From: a bacterium
GTDB taxonomy: Bacteria; Campylobacterota; Campylobacteria; Campylobacterales; Sulfurimonadaceae
NCBI GenBank assembly: GCA_018824305.1
Contig: JAHJGM010000020.1
Span: 1-42,553 of the forward strand
Direction: 5' to 3'
Length of the DNA: 42,553 nucleotides
Shown here one piece after another: positions 1,742 to 13,395 of this stretch. The notes below the pieces were generated by a model. The model did no database searches, had not been told where the DNA came from, and worked only from the letters and a program-made list of their open reading frames with translations. The position numbers and the translations under genes are program-made. How positions within the stretch are numbered: position 1 is the first letter of the stretch; each line of letters begins with the position of its first letter.

Positions 1742-2170
1742 ATTATCTCTTCTTTGCAAAGTAAACCTCAATTTTCAAAATTATCTCAATTTCACTGTAT
1801 AAAAAAAATTCAAGAACTATTTCCCATCCATTTACAAAAAATGATCGTCTATGGATATATCAAGAACAACATATTAAATTTCGTTCTTAGTCACCCATGG
1901 GCTAAACAGGAATTTGATATTATAATACAATCTATTAAAACACCTTTAAAGCAAATCCCCCCTCTTGAGTGTAAAAACCTAAATTTCAACGATATAAGAG
2001 CTTATGTCTCTTTCAAACCTCACAAAGATGAAAGCCTGCATGGCGGTTCAAGCACGGATGAAAGATTTGTTGAGCGATCCCATGCAGAGTTTACCAACAG
2101 TGTCACAGACGAGAGACTCTATAACGTCATAGAAGATATCCGCAAGATTTTAAATGATAGACAAGATTAA
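1724..2170 (+). CDS. DUF721 / DciA-like protein
   Basis: A 148-residue protein whose first 100 residues resemble the DUF721 family: basic N-terminal helix, then [29 protein letters not shown], a compact alpha-beta-beta pattern resembling a KH fold. Members of this family (DciA) help load the DnaB helicase in bacteria that lack DnaC/DnaI. That role is known for the family and only inferred here. The C-terminal third ([16 protein letters not shown] onward) looks disordered and polar. The last 17 bases overlap the start of uvrC, so the two are co-expressed; I recall a small gene in the same place before uvrC in Helicobacter. The mRNA may be leaderless (see the promoter at 1712). Identification is moderate because DUF721 proteins are divergent. 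Confidence 0.6.
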
Positions 2171-3950
2171 AAACCTCCCGAGTTCTGCGGGGATTTATCA
2201 GTATTTTAACGAAAAAGGCCAACTGCTCTACATCGGTAAAGCAAAAAATCTCAAGAACCGTGTAAAAAGTTATTGGTATTTTACTCCGATCCTACGTCCA
2301 AATCCTGCCCTTAATCCAAGAATAGTCAAAATGCTGAGTGAAACAGCATCGATGAACTATATTGTCGTCAACAGCGAACATGATGCATTGATCTTAGAAA
2401 ACTCTCTCATCAAACAGCTAAAACCAAAATACAATATCCTCCTGCGTGATGATAAGACTTATCCCTATATCTATATAGATTATTCACAAAAATATCCAAG
2501 ATTTGAGATCACGAGAAAAGTTGTAGATTCAAGGGATGTGAAGTATTTCGGACCCTATTCCATAGGAGCCAGAGATATACTGGACTCTGTCTATGAACTC
2601 TGCAGACTTGTCCAAAAAAAAAGCTGTATAAAGGGAAAAAAAGCGTGTTTATACTACCAAATAAAAAAATGTCTTGCACCGTGTGAGTTCAACATCAAAA
2701 GTGAACTTTACAAAAAAGAGATAGACAAAGCCATAAATTATATAGAAAACAAAAAAGAGCTTTTAAAAGAGCTGAAAAAAAAGATGCTCTTTTATGCAGA
2801 GGAGCTGCGTTTTGAAGAGGCAAACGAAATCAAAAGCAGAATCCAAAGCATAGAAAAATCAAACATCTCTTCACAAATCGACTTAGCAACAAATGATAAC
2901 TACGATATTTTCTGCATTGCGGATAAAGAAAATCGTGCCGTCATAATCAAGATATTTATGCGAAACGGGAAGATAGTCTCATCTTCGCATGACTATATTT
3001 ACCTCAATGAGGGATTTGATACGGATGAGATATATTACCGCGCCATTATGGAGTATTACGGCAGTGAAGCACCTCCGATCATAGCTCCTATTCTAGTCGC
3101 ACATGAGTTTGATTCCAAAGAACTTTTAGAAGATTATCTCTCTAGTGTTTTTGGTAAAAAAGCAGAGATCGCAAATCCTAAACGCGGTGATAAAAAAAGA
3201 CTGATCGACTTAGCTTTACTCAACGCCAACGAGCTTTTAAATAAAACAAAAATCGACAATTCCTATGAAAGTGCACTTTCCATAAAAGAGCTTTTCAATC
3301 TTCAGAGAGTTCCATTAAGAATAGAGACTTTTGACAACTCGCACATGAGCGGCCAAGCGACTGTAGGAGCTATGGTGGTATACGACAACGGTATATTTGA
3401 TAAAAAATCGTACAGAACATATCATCTGGAATCAAGGGATGAGTATTCGCAGATGAAAGAGATGCTCACAAAAAGAATAGAGAGTTTTGAAAAGAACACT
3501 CCCCCCGACTTATGGATACTTGACGGTGGAGAAACACTGCTTAAGCTAGCACTTGATCTCATCGAATCAAGCGGTGTATTTTTAGATGTCATCGCTATTT
3601 CCAAAGAAAAGATCGATGCAAAAACTCATCGTGCAAAGGGTGAAGCGAAAGATATCATCCATACTGCCGATGAAAGCTTTAATCTAAGTACAACCGATAA
3701 AAGGCTTCAATTTGTTCAAAGGCTCAGAGATGAGGCCCATAGAAGCGCTATCACATTCCACAAAAAAACGAAATTAAAGTTGGATCAGGAGAGTAGGCTT
3801 TTGTCGCTTAATGGAATATCTGCAGCAAAAATTCAAAAGCTTTTAAACTATTTTGGAACATTTGAAATGATTAAATCTGCAAGCGAAGATGAAATTGCTT
3901 CTATATTAAACCTAAAAGATGCAAAAACTATAAAATTACATTACAAATAA
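2154..3950 (+). CDS. uvrC: UvrABC excinuclease subunit C
   Basis: UvrC makes both incisions during nucleotide excision repair after UvrAB finds a DNA lesion. The N-terminal GIY-YIG nuclease domain is clear: AGIYQYF at about residue 12 and [17 protein letters not shown] at about 25-41, with the catalytic Arg in KNR. A UVR motif ([15 protein letters not shown], about 215-229) contacts UvrB. The C-terminal RNase H-like nuclease shows [20 protein letters not shown] (about 393-412) and LWILDGG (about 450-456), followed by helix-hairpin-helix sequence ([18 protein letters not shown]). The length of 598 is normal for the family in this phylum. The start overlaps the preceding gene by 17 bases, which fits translational coupling. 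Confidence 0.97.
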
Positions 3951-3979: not shown

Positions 3980-4009
3980 GTGACCAACTTAGATTTTAAG
4001 GTTTTTAGG

Positions 4010-4423
4010 ATGAGTAGACCAAAAGTAGTAAATGAAGAGTACCACTTCGAAGGAAGAGCAATAGTAAGTGAAACCGACACAAAGGGTGTAATCACATTTG
4101 CTAATAGAAAATTTTGTGAAATTTCCGGGTATACAAAAGAAGAACTAATTGGAAAACCTCATAATATTATACGACATCCGGACATGCCTAAGACAGCCTT
4201 TGCACAGATGTGGAAAGAGATTCAAGCCGGTCAGACATGGCACGGATTTGTAAAAAATCTACGTAAAGACGGCTTGTACTACTGGGTTGAGACCGAAATT
4301 ACTCCCGTCTTTGATGAAAATAGGAATATAACAGGCTATATAGCAGCACGTAAGCCGGCGAGTAGAAAGAACATCGAAGAGGCTAGCAGTCTATATGCAA
4401 AAATGCTACAAACTGAAAAGTAA
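4010..4423 (+). CDS. Aer-like PAS sensor protein
   Basis: A single PAS domain of about 137 residues with no other domain. The stretch GVITFANRKFCEISGYTKEELIG, then HNIIRHPDMPKTAFAQMW and WHGFVKNLRKDGLYYWVETEITP, closely follows the Aer-type PAS, which binds FAD and senses redox or energy state in E. coli Aer and Campylobacter CetB. FAD binding here is inferred. There is no HAMP or MCP signalling domain, so it must act through a partner. It is the first gene of an operon with the HPt protein, hybrid kinase and response regulator (gaps of 9, 12 and 13 bases). I chose the ATG at 4010, preceded by AAGG about 8 bases upstream and downstream of a probable -10; the upstream GTG at 3980 lies before the predicted transcription start. 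Confidence 0.85.
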   Translation: MSRPKVVNEEYHFEGRAIVSETDTKGVITFANRKFCEISGYTKEELIGKPHNIIRHPDMPKTAFAQMWKEIQAGQTWHGFVKNLRKDGLYYWVETEITPVFDENRNITGYIAARKPASRKNIEEASSLYAKMLQTEK

Positions 4424-4432
4424 GGAATAGGG

Positions 4433-6490
4433 ATGCTTATATACAATCATAAACAAGAGTTTATTGGAATTGATGAAAAAGATTTAAAGAGTCTAGGGTT
4501 TCAAAACTTGGCAGAGCTTAAAAGAGAATGTAGCGACTTTGCCGACCTTTTTGTTAAAAAACCTAGCTATATACATAATTTTAAAAATTTCAATTGGATC
4601 TATTATATATTGCACTCAGATATAGGTGAAGCAAAAGTCATTATCCGTACAAGCAAAAAAAACTTCACTGCAACATTAGAGTTGGAGACAATATATCTCA
4701 ATGATGCACCTGATCAGCCTGCGTATGCAATCACACTTTCCAAATTAAGAGCTTTAGACACTAAAGAAAACAAAGATATTGAAAAAGATATTTTAGAAAC
4801 TCCTGCACCAAAAATAGTCATTCCAGAAAAAAAAGTAGAAGAGATCTTACCTGATTTTGAAGATGAACAGTCAATAGAACTTAGCGAACCGGATATATTT
4901 GAGACTCCGATACAACAAAAAGTTATAGAAGATCCATATGATTTTGATTTTAACGCTCCATTAGATATAGAAGATGTATATGAACCAGCAATAGAAGATG
5001 AACCATTCAAGATAGATGAAGATTTTGAATTTGATCAGATCGATAAAGCAGAACTGCCTATCGATATTTATGAAGAGAATGAGATCAAAGAAAGCATAAA
5101 AGAGCCTGTAGAACAAAAACCGGTCGAGAAACCTATGCTCGGCGATTATACGGCGACTCCGTCCAATAATCAATACATCAAAAATCTGCAAGTCAGTAAA
5201 GACTATAAGTATGATCCGAGTGTGGCGTCCAGCGAATTGGGACTGCCTATCGACCTTATCGAAGAGTTTATCGGGGATTTTATTCAGCAATCTTACGATT
5301 TTAAAGACGATCTATATAAAAACGTGTTAAATGATGATCTAGAAGCGGTAAAACTTTTATCTCACAAACTCAAAGGTGTAGCGGCAAATCTGAGGATTGA
5401 AGATGCATTTGAAGTATTGAGTATAATCAATAGTTCAGATAATATGGATGAGATAAGAGCGAATCTTGACCATTTCTACACGATAATCGCAAAACTTGAG
5501 GGTAAAGCTCCGATCCTTACACAAGACAACGTAGAACCGTTACATGTAGAATCGATTGAAGAGATTCCCCAAGAAGAGCTTTATACGGTTGATTTAAAAG
5601 ATGATCTAGAAGATACACAAGAACATATACTTGAAGAATCTTCTGATGAAGACGACTTATATCATATAGGAATCAAATATGATGATAATGAGCCGATCAC
5701 TTTGGAAAATCACAATTTTGATGAGAAAGATGATTTCAACGAAAAAGAGCAATTTAAAGATGATGATAAAATCGCATTAGAAGAGATTGCTTTTGATGAT
5801 GATTATTTTATCAAAGATGACGAATCAACTGAAAATAAAGCAACTTTTGTAGAAAATGAAGATGATTTTTTCATCAAAGATGACAACTTAACTGATGATA
5901 CAGATAGTCTTGTAGAAGAAGATGAACCAATTAAAATAGATGAAGAGCTATCACTAGAAGATATAAATAAAGATGATTATTTGAATGAAGAAAGCAATGA
6001 AATAGAGGAAGATGCTTTCATAGAATTAGATGAATTGACACCTGTAGAAAATGATAATGAAGATGATTTTTTCATCAAAGATGACAACTCAACTGATGAC
6101 ATAGATAATCTTATAGAAGAAGATGAACCGATTAAAATAGATGAAGAGAGTGATGAAACAGAAGAAGAAAATCCAGTTGAAAAAGAGGATAACATTGATT
6201 ATGACAAAGACATAATCATGCACGAACTAGGACTCAATAAAGATATCGTCAATCAACTTTTAGCCGACTTCAAAGAACACTCGATCGATATGATGCCTAG
6301 TTTAGAAAAAGCAATTGAACAGAGTGATTTTACTGAACTAAAAAGTCAAGTTATTAGTATAAAAGGAGCTTCTGACAATCTTCGTCTCAATAAAGTTTCA
6401 AGAATACTAGAAGAGTTACTATCTGTAGATAATGTAGAAGATGCCAAAGAACTGTTGGTCAGCTTTAAAAACTACATAAACCAAATATAA
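4433..6490 (+). CDS. Acidic two-HPt phosphotransfer protein (second HPt lacks its histidine)
   Basis: A 685-residue, strongly acidic protein. Residues 1-105 form a globular N-terminal region I do not recognise. Residues about 265-355 are a histidine phosphotransfer (HPt) domain with the motif SHKLKGVAANLRI; H311 is the expected phosphorylation site. Residues about 600-685 form a second HPt-like domain with the parallel motif ISIKGASDNLRL, in which the histidine position is Ile641, so it cannot carry phosphate there. Between them lies an Asp/Glu-rich linker with repeated blocks around DDFFIKDD and EEDEPIKIDEE. An AAGGA Shine-Dalgarno precedes the start. Its place between a PAS sensor and a hybrid kinase suggests it moves phosphate from the kinase receiver to the downstream regulator, with the dead HPt as a docking or inhibitory module. 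Function is inferred. Confidence 0.8.
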   Translation: MLIYNHKQEFIGIDEKDLKSLGFQNLAELKRECSDFADLFVKKPSYIHNFKNFNWIYYILHSDIGEAKVIIRTSKKNFTATLELETIYLNDAPDQPAYAITLSKLRALDTKENKDIEKDILETPAPKIVIPEKKVEEILPDFEDEQSIELSEPDIFETPIQQKVIEDPYDFDFNAPLDIEDVYEPAIEDEPFKIDEDFEFDQIDKAELPIDIYEENEIKESIKEPVEQKPVEKPMLGDYTATPSNNQYIKNLQVSKDYKYDPSVASSELGLPIDLIEEFIGDFIQQSYDFKDDLYKNVLNDDLEAVKLLSHKLKGVAANLRIEDAFEVLSIINSSDNMDEIRANLDHFYTIIAKLEGKAPILTQDNVEPLHVESIEEIPQEELYTVDLKDDLEDTQEHILEESSDEDDLYHIGIKYDDNEPITLENHNFDEKDDFNEKEQFKDDDKIALEEIAFDDDYFIKDDESTENKATFVENEDDFFIKDDNLTDDTDSLVEEDEPIKIDEELSLEDINKDDYLNEESNEIEEDAFIELDELTPVENDNEDDFFIKDDNSTDDIDNLIEEDEPIKIDEESDETEEENPVEKEDNIDYDKDIIMHELGLNKDIVNQLLADFKEHSIDMMPSLEKAIEQSDFTELKSQVISIKGASDNLRLNKVSRILEELLSVDNVEDAKELLVSFKNYINQI
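5850..6148 (+). repeat. Direct repeat coding for acidic linker blocks
   Basis: Two long near-identical copies lie at about 5850-5946 and 6044-6148, each beginning with GTAGAAAATGA and ending with ATAGATGAAGAG; the second copy has a 6-base insertion near its start. A shorter related unit lies near 5796-5830 (DDDYFIKDDEST). They encode DDFFIKDD...DD..D.L.EEDEPIKIDEE in the linker between the two HPt domains. High DNA identity suggests a recent in-frame duplication. Confidence 0.8.
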
Positions 6491-6502: not shown

Positions 6503-9500
6503 ATGCAAATAGGATTAAAAAATAGGCTAAGACTGATAAGTTTATTTCCGATTATTATTCTTTTCTCATTAGCTTCATATTATGTTTACAATGCATATTC
6601 AAGCTATGACAGTGCAAAAAAATTAGAAGCCAAACTAAAAGAGAACAGATACTTAACACAGTTACTGGATAATATATCGCGTGAACGCGGGATGACAATT
6701 ATGTATCTAGGAAACTCTTCACCTACGACTCATAAGTCGCTTATTGCACAAAGAGACTTAGTCGACCAAAAAACTTCAGAGTATGTAGCACATATCAAAA
6801 ACAATGACTATCTGCATGATCATACAAACGGTGAAGCGAATTGCCAAGCATGTAAAAACAGCGCTACCGTTACAACTATTATGAAAAATACACAAGGAGT
6901 GAGAAAACTTGTCGATGAGCAAAAAATAGATTTTAATGATGTTTTTTATACTACATACGGAAAAGCACAAAAAGATATTTTAACAAAATTGGAAAATATT
7001 GCGGCTATTCACGTTGATGAGAAGATATCTTCACTTGTCACTGCCTATCTTTCATTGGTACGTGCACAGGAGTTTACTGCTGCAGAGCGAGATTATATCT
7101 CTTATACCCTTGCACGTTCTACTCCGCTTGAGTCTGATGAAATAAACAAATGGCTCGCTTTCATCGGCAAAGCCGACTCTATCAATTATGAAGAAGTCGA
7201 TGCAGACATACATAAAAAGCTTGATGATATTTTTAAAAGTGAAGACAACACAGACTTAAGCAACGATATTACAGAAGAGCGTTCAAACATCCTTGAAGCA
7301 GCAAAGAAAGGTGAATATGACACTGAATCCGGCATCTGGTTTACAATGCTTTCAGAAAAAGAGAATGTTATAACGCAAGCTAAAGATATTATTCTTGAAG
7401 AGATGGATAAAAGGGCAAAAGTCGTTCAAGAAAATGCTATTAAAATACTTGTAATTGCTATCTTTATTTGGCTATTATCAATAATAGTCGGTATTTTGGG
7501 CTTCCTGCTTTCAAATGATATTGCTAGAAATATTAAAAATCTTGAACTCGTTTTAAGACGTGTTGCAAAAGATACCGGAGATGATGAGGACAATAGAAAT
7601 ATTAACCTTGACACAGCTTCAGGAACGGCACAGGCATATCAACTACTAGAAGATATTATTGAGCAGACACGTCGTGATAAAGAATACGCGATGGAAGCAA
7701 GTGAAGCAAAATCTATGTTCCTTGCAAATATGTCTCATGAAATCCGTACACCACTAAACGGTATCGTCGGATTTACCGAACTGTTAAAAGACACAGATCT
7801 TAGTGAAGAACAAAGAGAGTTCATCGATATTATTGAAAAATCATCCGAAAACCTTCTTGAAATTATCAATAACATTCTTGACCTTTCTAAAATCGAAAGC
7901 AATAAACTTGAGATCGAAGAGGTTATATTTAATCCTACAGACGAATTTGAAAGTGCTGTCGAAGTTTACTCTGTTCGTGCTTCTGAAAAACATATCGACC
8001 TTGGTTGCTATATCGATCCAGAGCTTGAGCGTCCTATTAAAGGGGATCCTACTAAGATCAAAGAGGTTATCATTAACCTTTTATCAAATGCAGTTAAATT
8101 TACAAACAGCGGCGGTGCCATCAATGTCGATATTCGTCGTCTAGAATCAGAACAAAGCGGTAAAATTAAGATCAGATTCCAGGTACAAGATAGCGGTATC
8201 GGTGTAACAAGCGAACAGAAATCTCGTATTTTTGAAGCATTCAGCCAAGCTGATACATCTATTACCCGTAAATATGGTGGTACCGGTCTAGGTCTTACTA
8301 TTTCTAGCCGCTTTGTTGAATTAATGGGTGGTCAACTGGATATAGAGAGTGAAGTGGGTCACGGCACAACTTTCTTCTTTACTTTAGAGTTTGAAGAGAT
8401 AGAGACTTTAAATGACTCTATGAAAGCTAGTTTTTCAAATATTAATGCTCTGATCTTAGATTCAAATAGTAAAGAAAAGACACAAAGCAAATATCTTCGT
8501 GAGTATTTAGATTTTTACGGAGTCAGTTATACTTCATTTAAAGACATAGTAGAGCTCAATACATTGGAACAACAGATCAATTATGATTTGATGTTTGTCG
8601 ATTATGATTTTGCAAATGAAGAAGATCTAGTAAATTATGCTAAATCACCGGAAGCAATGATACTCATCACAAAATCATACTATATGAAAAAGATAGAAAG
8701 CCTAGGCTTGTCTCTCTTTAAAACACTTTATGAGCCACTCAATACAAGTAAATTAAAATCTGTTCTAGAAAACTATGATTCATCATCATTTAATGAACAA
8801 AAAAACAAAAGAGCTCGTCGTAAAAAATTTGATGAAAGAAGCTCTAAATTTACAGCAAGAGCTTTAGTGGCTGAAGATAATATCATCAACCAAAAACTTA
8901 TAAAAAGAACTTTGGAAGATCTAGGTATTACCGTAACTTTGGCAAATAATGGCCTTGAAGCATTCCAAAAACGTAAAAGCGGAAACTTTGACATCGTGTT
9001 TATGGATATCCAAATGCCGGTGCTTGACGGTGTAGAAGCGACACAAGAGATATTAGATTATGAAGAAGATTTCAATCTTCCTCACGTGCCGATAGTCGCA
9101 TTAACGGCAAATGCGCTCAAAGGCGACAGAGAACGCTTTTTGAGCCATGGTCTTGATGAATATACAACGAAACCTTTAGTGCGTTCTGAAATAATCTCTA
9201 TTCTCAACCATTTCTTGGCTGATCTTATTGTAGATGTAAAATCATACAAGGCTCCAATTGCTTTAAATAGCGAGGAAAAGGCACAAGAAGACAAGAACAC
9301 TACTACTCCGACAGAGATTGAACAGTCTGTTTTAGAGTCTACACCAATTGCAGAAGTGGAAGATACTGTCAGTTTAGAAGAGATCATTAAGCCAGAAATC
9401 GATACGGTTGAAGATGAAACTAGTTTGGAACCTGAAATCACTGTCGTAAGTCATGAAGACAAACCTTATATGTCTGATATTTTACTGACAAAGAAAAATA

Positions 9501-9817
9501 AAGTAGAAGCAAAACTATTCGCCCATATTCTTGATGAACTCAAATACAGTTATGAAATAGCTGAAAATGTTGAAGATATGAAAGCAAAATTAAAGGCCAA
9601 TAGATATAAGCTTGCACTTTTTGATAAAGAACTTCATGGATTAAAGCTTCAAGAACTAACAGAAGAGTTGAAAGGCATAAATTCTGAGGTATATTTTGTT
9701 ATGATGATTGATCCACACAGTAAAGAGGAAGAAACAGATGCACTGTATGTGCATGAAATTATAAAAAATATAGTAAATAAAGACCTATTGCGCTTAGTAT
9801 TTGAAAAATTTGTTTAA
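6503..9817 (+). CDS. Hybrid sensor histidine kinase with NIT-type periplasmic sensor
   Basis: A 1104-residue membrane kinase. TM1 is at about 10-29 and TM2 at about 312-336; the periplasmic part between them carries the NIT hallmark LDNISRERGMTIMYLG (about 57-72), seen in nitrate/nitrite-sensing domains, plus a CQAC pair at C114/C117. The cytoplasmic part has HisKA (FLANMSHEIRTPLNG, phospho-His H412) and HATPase_c with N, G1 and G2 boxes (INLLSNAVKF, DSGIGV, GGTGLGLTIS). A receiver-like domain lacking normal acidic residues (about 645-755) is followed by a true receiver (about 786-905, VFMDIQMP with D835, and the Lys in TTKPL), an acidic linker and a second degenerate receiver-like domain (about 987-1104). 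This is the BarA/ArcB-type multistep layout without its own HPt; the HPt is the upstream gene. The ligand is unknown. Confidence 0.9.
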   Translation: MQIGLKNRLRLISLFPIIILFSLASYYVYNAYSSYDSAKKLEAKLKENRYLTQLLDNISRERGMTIMYLGNSSPTTHKSLIAQRDLVDQKTSEYVAHIKNNDYLHDHTNGEANCQACKNSATVTTIMKNTQGVRKLVDEQKIDFNDVFYTTYGKAQKDILTKLENIAAIHVDEKISSLVTAYLSLVRAQEFTAAERDYISYTLARSTPLESDEINKWLAFIGKADSINYEEVDADIHKKLDDIFKSEDNTDLSNDITEERSNILEAAKKGEYDTESGIWFTMLSEKENVITQAKDIILEEMDKRAKVVQENAIKILVIAIFIWLLSIIVGILGFLLSNDIARNIKNLELVLRRVAKDTGDDEDNRNINLDTASGTAQAYQLLEDIIEQTRRDKEYAMEASEAKSMFLANMSHEIRTPLNGIVGFTELLKDTDLSEEQREFIDIIEKSSENLLEIINNILDLSKIESNKLEIEEVIFNPTDEFESAVEVYSVRASEKHIDLGCYIDPELERPIKGDPTKIKEVIINLLSNAVKFTNSGGAINVDIRRLESEQSGKIKIRFQVQDSGIGVTSEQKSRIFEAFSQADTSITRKYGGTGLGLTISSRFVELMGGQLDIESEVGHGTTFFFTLEFEEIETLNDSMKASFSNINALILDSNSKEKTQSKYLREYLDFYGVSYTSFKDIVELNTLEQQINYDLMFVDYDFANEEDLVNYAKSPEAMILITKSYYMKKIESLGLSLFKTLYEPLNTSKLKSVLENYDSSSFNEQKNKRARRKKFDERSSKFTARALVAEDNIINQKLIKRTLEDLGITVTLANNGLEAFQKRKSGNFDIVFMDIQMPVLDGVEATQEILDYEEDFNLPHVPIVALTANALKGDRERFLSHGLDEYTTKPLVRSEIISILNHFLADLIVDVKSYKAPIALNSEEKAQEDKNTTTPTEIEQSVLESTPIAEVEDTVSLEEIIKPEIDTVEDETSLEPEITVVSHEDKPYMSDILLTKKNKVEAKLFAHILDELKYSYEIAENVEDMKAKLKANRYKLALFDKELHGLKLQELTEELKGINSEVYFVMMIDPHSKEEETDALYVHEIIKNIVNKDLLRLVFEKFV

Positions 9818-9830
9818 TCAAGGATGAGAG

Positions 9831-10208
9831 ATGTCAGATAAAAAATTAAAAATATTAGCTGTAGATGATGATATGATCAATCTAAAGCTATTAAAATCCA
9901 TGCTGCTTAAACAGGATAATGTTTCTGAAGTAGTAGAAGCTAGAAACGGTGCGGATGCGATAGGAATATTAAAATCCACTAATGATATCGATATTATACT
10001 TTTAGACATTATAATGCCGGTTATGGGTGGATTAGAGATGTTAAAAGTAGTGCGTGCAGATGAAAATCTACAACAGATGCCTGTCATAATGCTGACAACA
10101 GATGAAACAAAGAAAAGTGAAGCTTTAGAAAGTGGAGCAAACGGCTTTTTAATGAAGCCTGTTCGCGCTCATGACTTAACAGACCAAATAAAAAAGCTAT
10201 CTATATAA
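9831..10208 (+). CDS. Single-domain response regulator (CheY-like receiver)
   Basis: A 125-residue stand-alone receiver domain. The acidic pocket VDDD (about 11-14), phospho-acceptor D59 in LLDIIMPVMGG, the switch Thr in MLTTDE (about 86-91) and the conserved Lys in FLMKPVRA (about 109) are all present, so it should accept phosphate. There is no DNA-binding or enzymatic output domain, so it must act by binding another protein or serve as a phosphate sink. It closes the PAS/HPt/kinase operon, 13 bases after the kinase, with an AAGGA Shine-Dalgarno. The most likely donor is H311 of the two-HPt protein. It could instead act on the flagellar motor like CheY; I see no chemotaxis genes nearby to decide. 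Confidence 0.9.
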   Translation: MSDKKLKILAVDDDMINLKLLKSMLLKQDNVSEVVEARNGADAIGILKSTNDIDIILLDIIMPVMGGLEMLKVVRADENLQQMPVIMLTTDETKKSEALESGANGFLMKPVRAHDLTDQIKKLSI

Positions 10209-10225
10209 ATAAAACTTCATTATAA

Positions 10226-12647
10226 TTAAACAAGTGCCAACTTAAGCACTTGTTCTATACGCGTCACTCCGATTATCTCTAAATCGTCCCTGATCTCTTT
10301 TGGAATATCATCAAGATCTCTCTCATAATTTTTTTGGGGAATCACCACTGTCGTCATACCCGCTTTATGAGCTGCGATAAGTTTCTCTTTTAGTCCGCCT
10401 ATAGGCAAGACGTCTCCACGTAAAGAGACCTCTCCGGTCATCGCAAGATCTGAGCGAACTTTTTTCGAACTTAGAATAGAAGCCATAACCGTCGTCATTG
10501 CGATTCCCGCACTTGGTCCATCTTTTGGAGTAGCACCATCAGGGACATGAACGTGAAGATCATATCTTTTATACACTTCACTTGCATCGATGACACTGTT
10601 TTCCTCTTCCTCTTTATGATTTACAGGGATATTGTCTAATGAAATTTCAATCTTTTTTTCATCTATCAATGTTTTAACAACACTCAAAGCGATTCTTGCC
10701 GATTCTTTCATAACATCGCCAAGGCTACCTGTGAGCTGCATATTACCTTTGCCTTTTATGCGAATAGACTCTAGTTTCAATACATCTCCGCCTACACTTG
10801 TCCATGCCAATCCGTTTACCATACCTATAACAGGGATCCTATCGGTTTTTTCTATTTCAAATACGCTTTTATCAAAAAACTCTTTTAAATTTTTTATCGA
10901 TACAGAGACTTTTGACTGATCAGGATGTTGAAGCAGTATTTTTGCTGCTTTTCTTGTCAAGTCTGCAATTCTACGTCTTAGATTTCTTACACCCCGCTTC
11001 ACGAGTATATTTATCAATGATCTCATGCAAAGCAGTTTTTGAGACTACAAGTTCTGAAGTCTTAAGACCATGTTTTTTTATCTCTTGCGGTAATAAATAG
11101 CGTTTTGCTATCTCAAACTTTTCTTGAGGTGTATAACTAGTAACTGTTATAAACTCCATTCTATCTCTCAGAGGTGCCGGTATACCTCCCACATCATTCG
11201 CTGTAGCGATAAATATCACATCTCTAAGGTCTATGTTGAAGTTTAGATAATAATCTCTAAACTCTTTATTTTGCTCAGGATCTAAAATCTCCAAAAGTAC
11301 GGCAGTCGGATCACCTCGATGAGAACGTGCGACTTTATCTATCTCATCTAACACAATAACAGGATTCATCTTTTTAGCGTCTATGAGTCCTTGTGTGATG
11401 CGTCCTGGCATCGCACCGATATAGGTACGTCTGTGCCCACGCAATTCGTTAACATCTTCAAGCCCGCCAAGTGCGATGCGCACAAGTGGACGATGAAGTG
11501 CTTTTGCAATAGAGTTAGCTAAAGATGTTTTACCCACACCAGGAGGTCCGTTGAAACATAAAATCGCTCCGGCACTATCACCCTCTTTCTTGCCTCTAAG
11601 TTCAAGCAGCTCTTTTACGGCAAAATATTCTACGACTCTCTCTTTTGGTTTTTTAAGTGAAAAATGGTCTTCGTCAAGCTGTTTTTCGACATTTTCTATT
11701 TTTAACGATTTCTTTGCCATCTCTCCAAAAGGTATGTCAAGCGTCCACTCCAAATAGGTCTGTATCATCCCTGCATCGGCAGAATCAGGGTGCATCCTTG
11801 CATATCTTTCGATCTGTTTATTTATCTCTTTGTAGGCATCTTCACCCATTTTCTCTTTTTTTGCAGCTAATTTTTTACGATACTCTTCTATCTCCTCTTC
11901 ACGCTGCGTATCTGTTCCAAGTTCTCTTTGTATCTGTTTTAACTGCTCTTTTAAAAAGTACTCTTTATTGACTTTCTCTATTTTAGAGTGAACTTTGTTT
12001 CTTATCTCTTTTTGCAGTTTATTTGCTTCTATCTCTTCAATAAGATAATCGATAAGTATTAGAAACCTATTTTCAATATTTGTTTCGGAAAAAAGTTTAT
12101 AAGCCTGCTCTTTTTTCAGTTTGATACTGCTGCATATCAGATCGACAATGCGATTGTACTCATGATTTTCCTCTATAGTGCGAAGAAGATCGGGTGGAAA
12201 ATAGCTGCTTACTTGAGAAAGGGCACGGACCTTTTCCCTTACGACTTCAAGTACTGCATCCATTCTGAGTTCATTAGCCACACTTGAGTTCAGTACATTT
12301 ACATTTGCGATAAGCGGTGAATCGCTTACATGTGACAATATCTCTCCGCGGGCAAGACCCTGAAAAAGAACTTTTACCCTGCCATCAGGCAGTGCTACTT
12401 TTCTCATGATCGAACCTATAACCCCGACCTTATATAAAGAATCAAAATCTCTTTTACCCTCATGATCAGGTCGTGTCGAGCAAACTATGACCAATGTGTT
12501 TTCATCCATTGCTTTATTTGCAGCAGCTATATTACTTTCATCACTTAAAAAAAGCGGAGATATCATAAACGGGTATAAAAATATTTCATCTTCTGCTATA
12601 ACGGGAATATTTGTAGGAAATTCACTATAATTACTTAATTGCATCAT
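10226..12647 (-). pseudogene. lon: ATP-dependent protease Lon, interrupted by a one-base frameshift
   Basis: Lon is a hexameric cytoplasmic AAA+ serine protease that degrades damaged and regulatory proteins. Both halves are recognisable: an N-terminal substrate-binding domain (FLYPFMISPLFL), Walker A GPPGVGKT, Walker B VIVLDEIDK, then in another frame the protease domain with the catalytic Ser in KDGPSAGIAM (codon 10511-10513) and the Lys region GGLKEKLIAAHKAG. The frames meet at a run of four G on the coding strand (10992-10995): with three G it would read TREAGVRNLRRRIADL as in the family, but with four it reads TREAGCKKSKT and stops at 10971. All other parts are intact and the repaired length of about 807 residues is normal, so a base-calling error or very recent mutation is likely. 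The start is ATG 12647 with GGAG 6 bases upstream; it overlaps bamD. Confidence 0.9.
10229..10254. terminator. Hairpin between the convergent regulator and lon genes
   Basis: Perfect 9-bp stem AACAAGTGC / GCACTTGTT with an 8-base loop, covering the last codons of lon. It is well placed to end transcription in both directions. The U-tract is weak on both sides, so its efficiency is uncertain. Confidence 0.45.
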
Positions 12648-13395
12648 TTTCTTCTCCATCACTTGTCATATTATCATCACTTTGAACACTGTTTCTTGAA
12701 ACAACACTGCGCGTATGAGGTATGATCGCTCCATACCAGCTGGCTGTTCCATCACCCTCAAACCACTCTCTATACCATGGAGTATTCGCACGATCGACTT
12801 CATCCCACTTGATCCAAGGCTGAGGCAATATCTCTCTATAATATTTGGCACTTTTTGGTTTATCGATTCTGTCATAAAGCAATGCGATCGTTTCATTTAA
12901 AGCGGCTCTTGCCAAATACAATCTTGTCAGCATCGTATCTATAACAGGATAGTACTCTGAATTTGGATATTTCGATTCAAAGCTTTTTGCCCCTTCGATC
13001 GCTTCATCAATGAATGCCTGATCACGACGAGGATTTGGAAGAGACATGTACTTGACTTTTATCTTTAAAAACTCCGAATACTCTTTTTCATTAACATTGG
13101 CATATCTGCTTATATATTCATCCAAAAAATGTTCGCTAAGCAGATATTCTTCGCTGTTCATGTGAGCAACGGCAAGCAGGAATGTCGCTTCTCTAAGCAA
13201 AGGAGACCCGATGTGTTCTCCCTGTAAAGAACTATAATAGCTATCCGCTTTTTCCAAGTTGCCGTTGGAAACATTCTCTATTATCTTAGAGTACCAGTAC
13301 ATTGCAGGTTTATTGTATTCATCGTCATTTTTACTACATCCCGTAAAAAGTATGAAGATAAAAAATAGGGGTAATAGTGTTTTTGTCAGTATCAA
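12631..13395 (-). CDS. bamD: Outer membrane assembly lipoprotein BamD
   Basis: BamD is the essential lipoprotein partner of BamA in outer-membrane beta-barrel insertion. The protein has a lipoprotein signal peptide ending in LFTGC (Cys19) and helical TPR-like repeats: YWYSKIIENVSNGNLEKADSYY, REATFLLAVAHMNSEEYLLSEHFLDEYISRY, then ESKYPNSEYYPVIDTMLTRL, the typical hydrophobic pattern. The C-terminal tail (after about 195) is specific to this lineage. The start is TTG at 13395 with AAGGA 6 bases upstream; there is no better ATG before the signal peptide. The last 17 bases overlap lon, so the two genes are probably co-transcribed; BamD next to Lon is an arrangement I recall from Helicobacter and Campylobacter. 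Confidence 0.88.
   Translation of the reverse strand: MILTKTLLPLFFIFILFTGCSKNDDEYNKPAMYWYSKIIENVSNGNLEKADSYYSSLQGEHIGSPLLREATFLLAVAHMNSEEYLLSEHFLDEYISRYANVNEKEYSEFLKIKVKYMSLPNPRRDQAFIDEAIEGAKSFESKYPNSEYYPVIDTMLTRLYLARAALNETIALLYDRIDKPKSAKYYREILPQPWIKWDEVDRANTPWYREWFEGDGTASWYGAIIPHTRSVVSRNSVQSDDNMTSDGEENDAIK

Follow-up and report, generated by a model that had tools for sequence, protein, structure and literature searches.

Pseudo-HPts have been described in plants, where Arabidopsis AHP6 and related proteins combine the HPt fold with a residue other than His at the phospho-acceptor site, take no part in relay and share a pathway with active HPts (PMC7402358). As regards bacteria, ChpA of P. 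aeruginosa and CheA3 of R. centenum carry several Hpts per chain, some of them His-less, the role of which was stated to be undetermined (PMC10782961). Pseudo-receivers are also known to regulate kinases by docking (PMC12632262), and those of Caulobacter ShkA and Synechococcus CikA resemble the C-terminal receiver-like domain (REC-c) of the kinase described below. The window analysed here, a stretch of 42,553 nucleotides, encodes a 685-aa protein (4433-6490, +) with a PAS-like domain, a first HPt domain (D1) and a second, His-less one (D2). D2 shares with AHP6 the features listed above, but AHP6 stands alone as a protein and has Asn as its site residue, whereas D2 is bacterial, forms the C-terminal part of a multidomain protein in which it is joined to a PAS-like domain and, in many cases, also to an active HPt, and has a variable, mostly hydrophobic or small residue at its site. 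Like ChpA and CheA3, the protein is bacterial and its family combines multiple Hpts, not all of them with His, within a single chain (PMC10782961); by contrast, the His-less Hpts of ChpA and CheA3 lie inside CheA chemotaxis kinases, while D2 belongs to a kinase-less PAS/HPt protein whose gene adjoins that of a HisKA hybrid kinase, and in certain lineages this protein contains His-less domains only. The HPts of hybrid-kinase phosphorelays (Shewanella 3myf, P. aeruginosa HptB 7c1i, ArcB 2a0b) have the same fold as D2 and a role that D1 would fit, but D2 differs from them in its missing phospho-acceptor. The pseudo-domains of ShkA and CikA, finally, are receivers, whereas D2 is an HPt.

Pseudo-HPts in plants and His-less Hpts in CheA3 and ChpA are thus already known; a conserved bacterial family with a fixed kinase did not turn up in the papers searched. 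For bacterial pseudo-HPts, the papers listed were plant reports only, and searches for degenerate or inactive Hpt found none. No order-wide, syntenic bacterial pseudo-HPt outside CheA was found in a literature search that left most subscription journals outside its scope, the papers found did not describe neighbouring genes for a pseudo-HPt and for a pseudo-receiver, and the Epsilonproteobacteria literature on HPt and NIT proteins yielded nothing on a uvrC-PAS-HPt-kinase locus. The interest of the family lies in the retention, in numerous genera, of a His-less HPt next to a kinase that is always the same neighbour; such domains are rare among bacterial Hpts (PMC12632262).

The full-length AlphaFold2 (AF2) model of the 685-aa protein displayed globular domains separated by long acidic disordered linkers, and the only Pfam matches within the protein were two Hpt stretches. 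The N-terminal domain (aa 1-110, 4433-4762, +) was modelled with a pLDDT above 90 and a PAS-type order of strands and helices, but had no Pfam match; PAS/LOV structures were found among the Foldseek matches of the full model, at E values of about 0.1. As HPt proteins prevailed among the matches of the full-length model, the PAS-like reading of this domain rests on the AF2 secondary structure together with these weak Foldseek matches. D1 (aa ~255-360, 5195-5512, +; SHKLKGVAANLRIEDAF), the helices of which were modelled with a pLDDT above 90 and which could be aligned to Ypd1 structures, contains the classical SHKLKG motif with His311 (LSHKLKGVAANLRIEDAF). The codon of this predicted phospho-acceptor (5363-5365, +) corresponds to an invariant column in two alignments, and D1 is a plausible catalytic HPt, as predicted from these features. 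An acidic linker (5522-6175, +), in which nearly all residues from aa 364 to 581 have pLDDT values under 50, separates D1 from D2. The two domains aligned with 28% identity over 96 residues with zero gaps (E = 5e-11) and, judging from this similarity, are paralogous. Since the alignment is gap-free over its whole length, the correspondence between His311 and Ile641 is not a matter of alignment choice, in line with the initial annotation, which had proposed that Ile replaces the phospho-His of the second domain.

D2 (aa 588-685, 6194-6487, +; VISIKGASDNLRLNKVS, also given as VISIKGASDNLRL) was delineated from Pfam, AF2, PDB matches and orthologues. A C-terminal HPt domain is indeed present where it had been annotated, except that it begins nearer to aa 588 (nt ~6194) than to nt 6230. 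The Ile641 codon (att, 6353-6355, +), placed by sequence and orthologues, occupies the phospho-histidine position and is followed by the KGASDNLR segment (aa 644-651, 6362-6385, +), which corresponds to the conserved H+3 to H+10 patch of the orthologue alignment. Taken alone, D2 matched Pfam Hpt (PF01627) with 29.0 bits and D1 with 24.5, for a cut-off of 24.6. An AF2 model of D2 alone, built with 64 orthologous domains as input, displayed five helices in an HPt fold (pLDDT 93.8, pTM 0.83), and the best PDB matches of D2 in Foldseek were HPt proteins (3myf, 8rqj, 8pbw), with TM-scores to the query of 0.74-0.81 for the first five. The confident four-helix-type fold that was expected of a pseudo-HPt was therefore recovered. 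In VIA-align 2, D2 reached a Z value of 12.5 with Arabidopsis AHP1 and a Shewanella HPt over 97-98 residues; such values run generous for helical bundles, a designed bundle coming next at 11.4, while the top ranks and the full coverage belonged to HPt proteins. For this reason, the Pfam match also carries weight. Sequence and model together indicate that D2 is a genuine HPt homologue, predicted to be phosphorylation-incompetent (a pseudo-HPt): with His absent and no consistent substitute in its place, D2 would not accept phosphate by the HPt route.

The absence of His was then clearly a property of the window's own family (termed f1, with the architecture PAS-like/HPt/pseudo-HPt). A search with D2 among 60 related genomes matched 44 of them, including 38 of the 49 of good quality; every D2-type domain of f1 among these matches was devoid of His, while D1 of the same matches retained it. 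A scan of GTDB species genomes, with the D1 motif SHKLKGVA as search pattern, provided 80 named loci (with titles such as Sulfurimonas, Sulfuricurvum, Sulfurimonadaceae, Campylobacterales and the like). Due to this search pattern, the conservation of the D1 His in the named loci is partly built in; the bias leaves the D2 result untouched, and the D2-based search yields the same result for D1. After removal of a truncated domain (L067) and of one that is really a first domain (L025), the 93 distinct aligned D2-type domains were reduced to 91, and His was absent from 90 of these. The sole f1 orthologue with His at the D2 site comes from a Sulfurimonas MAG (L095, 9360-9653; codon CAT, EAHKLKGMSNN). 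The other domains displayed 11 residue types at this site (L 20, I 17, S 14, A 14, T 8, F 5, M 4, V 3, K 2, R 2, Q 1), which ranked 75th of 98 positions by entropy. By contrast, H+3 Lys, H+4 Gly, H+6 Ser, H+7 Asp, H+8 Asn and H+10 Arg were among the ten most conserved positions of D2, with Lys at H+3 in 90 and Gly at H+4 in 89 of the 93 aligned domains. The retention of Lys-Gly, Asn and Arg noted in the initial annotation thus extends to the orthologues. As the site itself is variable and the H+3 to H+10 patch near-invariant, conservation concerns the lack of His and the neighbouring patch, and not Ile: orthologues do share a non-His residue, as anticipated, without sharing this particular one. 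A survey of bacterial Hpt domains found 90 of 10,312 (0.9%) to be His-less (PMC12632262), and a figure of 90 out of 91 in f1 is therefore beyond chance. A local mutation or a sequencing error at Ile641 was ruled out by the His-less orthologues. Separately, in two loci from one contig of a MAG (L006 and L077, CAISHH010000163.1), the gene is broken by a frame change inside the D1 His motif.

The distribution of the protein was evaluated with a whole-protein profile, which found it in 146 of 249 genomes from the order; in a phylum-wide sample, 35 of 150 genomes matched, every one of them inside the order. Eighty-five proteins, belonging to nine families, were read for their architecture, and nearly all the same-block orthologues across the order possess a His-less HPt-like domain. 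The order of domains is reversed in f4 (PAS-like/pseudo-HPt/HPt), the first domain having L, I, M or F in place of His and all 13 second domains having His itself. Most f18 proteins have three HPt-like domains, the last of which has Lys in 12 cases, Arg in 2 and Val in 1 instead of His, and f6 combines a degenerate first domain, which has lost the KG pair, with a His-bearing second domain; two of these degenerate first domains have His at the site, yet lack Lys-Gly. Only His-less domains were found in the 34 proteins examined from f7 (14), f20 (17), f22 (1) and f23 (2), and f7 has also lost the KG pair, so that the receiver-facing patch is not retained everywhere. The exception is f16, with a single His-bearing HPt, where no clear pseudo-HPt was found. 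On a tree of 78 domains, the distribution of His and non-His required 5 changes, versus 26 when shuffled, the deep branches of this tree being weak. In eight f7 and f20 genomes, almost every other Pfam Hpt match retained the His motif, which indicates that the loss is specific to the PAS/pseudo-HPt protein. The active residue is thus absent, as initially annotated, but its loss is not recent: His-less domains are spread over the order and constitute the sole HPt-like type in four families.

 In the window, the block consists of uvrC (2154-3950, its first gene), a single-PAS-domain protein upstream of the 685-aa protein (3980-4423, +; Pfam PAS_3 etc.), the 685-aa protein itself, a NIT-HisKA-HATPase hybrid histidine kinase immediately downstream (6503-9817, +; Pfam), a stand-alone CheY-like receiver protein (9831-10208, +; Pfam Response_reg) and then lon on the opposite strand. 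Among f1 loci, the kinase was directly downstream in 74 of 74 testable cases, the PAS gene was present in 60/61, the stand-alone receiver in 64/65 and uvrC in 61/61. Much the same gene order was found in f4, f6 and f18, and the PAS gene was absent from the f7, f20 and f22 loci that were read. The kinase has three receiver-like domains: REC-a (8444-8812, +), degenerate in an alignment of 32 kinases; REC-b (8858-9232, +), a canonical receiver (AEDN...MDIQMP...KP; Pfam Response_reg) conserved in the aligned kinases, where its motif reads MDIxMP; and the C-terminal REC-c (9464-9814, +). In nearly all of these 32 kinases, the acidic pair of REC-c is changed to Lys-Lys, while the acceptor Asp is mostly retained, and REC-c is on this basis a predicted pseudo-receiver conserved across the order. 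As a separate observation, lon is represented in the window (10226-12662, -) by two overlapping ORFs of 563 and 266 aa, while relatives have one ORF of about 810 aa; this split reflects a frameshift, either real or due to an assembly error.

From a mechanistic point of view, these results suggest that D2 is probably a pseudo-HPt that selection has maintained for docking, and that it would most likely bind a receiver of the neighbouring kinase without phosphate exchange. A docking module is favoured since the HPt fold and the receiver-side residues are kept while phosphate acceptance is absent. In Ypd1, indeed, the Lys at H+3 touches the receiver in the BeF3 complex, and substitutions of the Gly at H+4 impair transfer while hardly altering binding (PMC6341664), which is why the conserved D2 positions may be regarded as receiver-facing. 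From the kept patch and the fixed kinase neighbour, we infer receiver binding, any particular receiver and a scaffolding or an inhibitory effect of D2 being likewise putative; the NIT hybrid kinase is the likely partner of the 685-aa protein. D2 may thus bind a receiver of this kinase through its normal HPt face and, in f1, anchor D1, the active HPt, to the kinase along with the PAS-like input domain; D1 could then relay phosphate from REC-b to the stand-alone receiver. In the lineages with pseudo-HPts only, the role of the protein would be that of a sensor adaptor or a kinase inhibitor, and not that of a relay. A mirror-tree analysis of D1 and D2 versus each kinase receiver and the stand-alone receiver in 62 species gave partial correlations that were all moderate and similar (for D2, stand-alone receiver 0.39, REC-c 0.34, REC-b 0.32), and no single receiver partner stood out among these species. 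The earlier proposal of a docking pseudo-HPt acting without exchange provides the best fit to the kept patch and the fixed kinase, although co-evolution did not single out its partner. The occurrence of natural versions with and without an adjoining active HPt, together with the one His-bearing variant (L095), makes the role of the pseudo-HPt directly testable by comparison.

A more specific form of docking may be considered, albeit as an unlikely one, in which D2 and REC-c would be a dead relay pair: descended from a true HPt-receiver pair, they would bind as a phosphorylation-independent clamp that couples the PAS sensor to the kinase across Campylobacterales, while the active HPt and REC-b do the chemistry. 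Two hints point in this direction. The pseudo-HPt and REC-c are both conserved pseudo-domains encoded by adjacent genes order-wide, and the f6 pseudo-HPt without KG occurs in species with a shortened kinase REC-c, within a single clade. D2 could also act in the manner of AHP6, which is thought to compete with active HPts (PMC7402358), by occupying REC-b and blocking transfer to active HPts, with the PAS input possibly releasing it. The f7 and f20 loci, where only a pseudo-HPt stands beside the kinase and where the other His-bearing HPts of the genome are possible competitors, would suit such an inhibitor; it appears rather doubtful nonetheless, as f1, f4 and f18 have the pseudo-HPt and an active HPt in the same chain, where inhibition in cis would be strange without some regulation, and as REC-b did not co-vary specially with D2.

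Since Spo0B and ChpT build their HPt-like bundles by dimerising (PMC11481889), the fold might serve, by means of the KG-SDNLR patch, for self-association or for binding a protein other than a receiver, and the retention of the domain in f7, despite the loss of its receiver-facing KG pair, is in line with this. We nevertheless regard a purely structural or oligomerisation module as quite unlikely, given that the strongest conservation in f1 includes the receiver-contact positions of known HPt complexes and that the neighbour is always a multi-receiver kinase. D2 does evolve fast, with a mean distance of 1.37 versus 0.50 for D1, as would be expected of a functionless relic of an internal duplication in the course of decay. 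Its intact fold, its near-invariant motif across f1 and its presence in many other families of the order make such a relic very improbable, and the f1 orthologues that have the N-terminal domain and D1 without D2 in the same ORF are all explained by a contig end or a broken frame. Phosphorylation on another residue, either a Ser or Thr in place of the His or a His at a shifted position, is hardly credible: Ser or Thr does occupy the D2 site in 22 f1 domains, but most have Leu, Ile, Ala, Phe, Met or Val there, and the two other His of the window's D2 (in MHELG and EHSID) are not conserved. As neither a phosphorylatable Ser/Thr nor a shifted His is conserved, both candidates were rejected. Docking to a kinase receiver is therefore the reading that we retain as the probable one.

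Other HPt-like proteins were found in the same genome, outside the window. A 372-aa protein (G000:C28:17608-18723; L247:609-1724) contains a second pseudo-HPt: it has a hydrophobic segment at its N terminus, a canonical receiver and, at its C terminus, an HPt-like domain (LLLDISGISANIGA) in which Leu replaces the His. Among 20 aligned sequences, 17 have Leu at this site, 2 have Ile and 1 has His. A 279-aa protein (G000:C1:36851-37687; L246:852-1688) carries a D1-like HPt that has the His but lacks the H+3 Lys (AHKNLGVAKNLRIED), and a similar match was found in genome G006.
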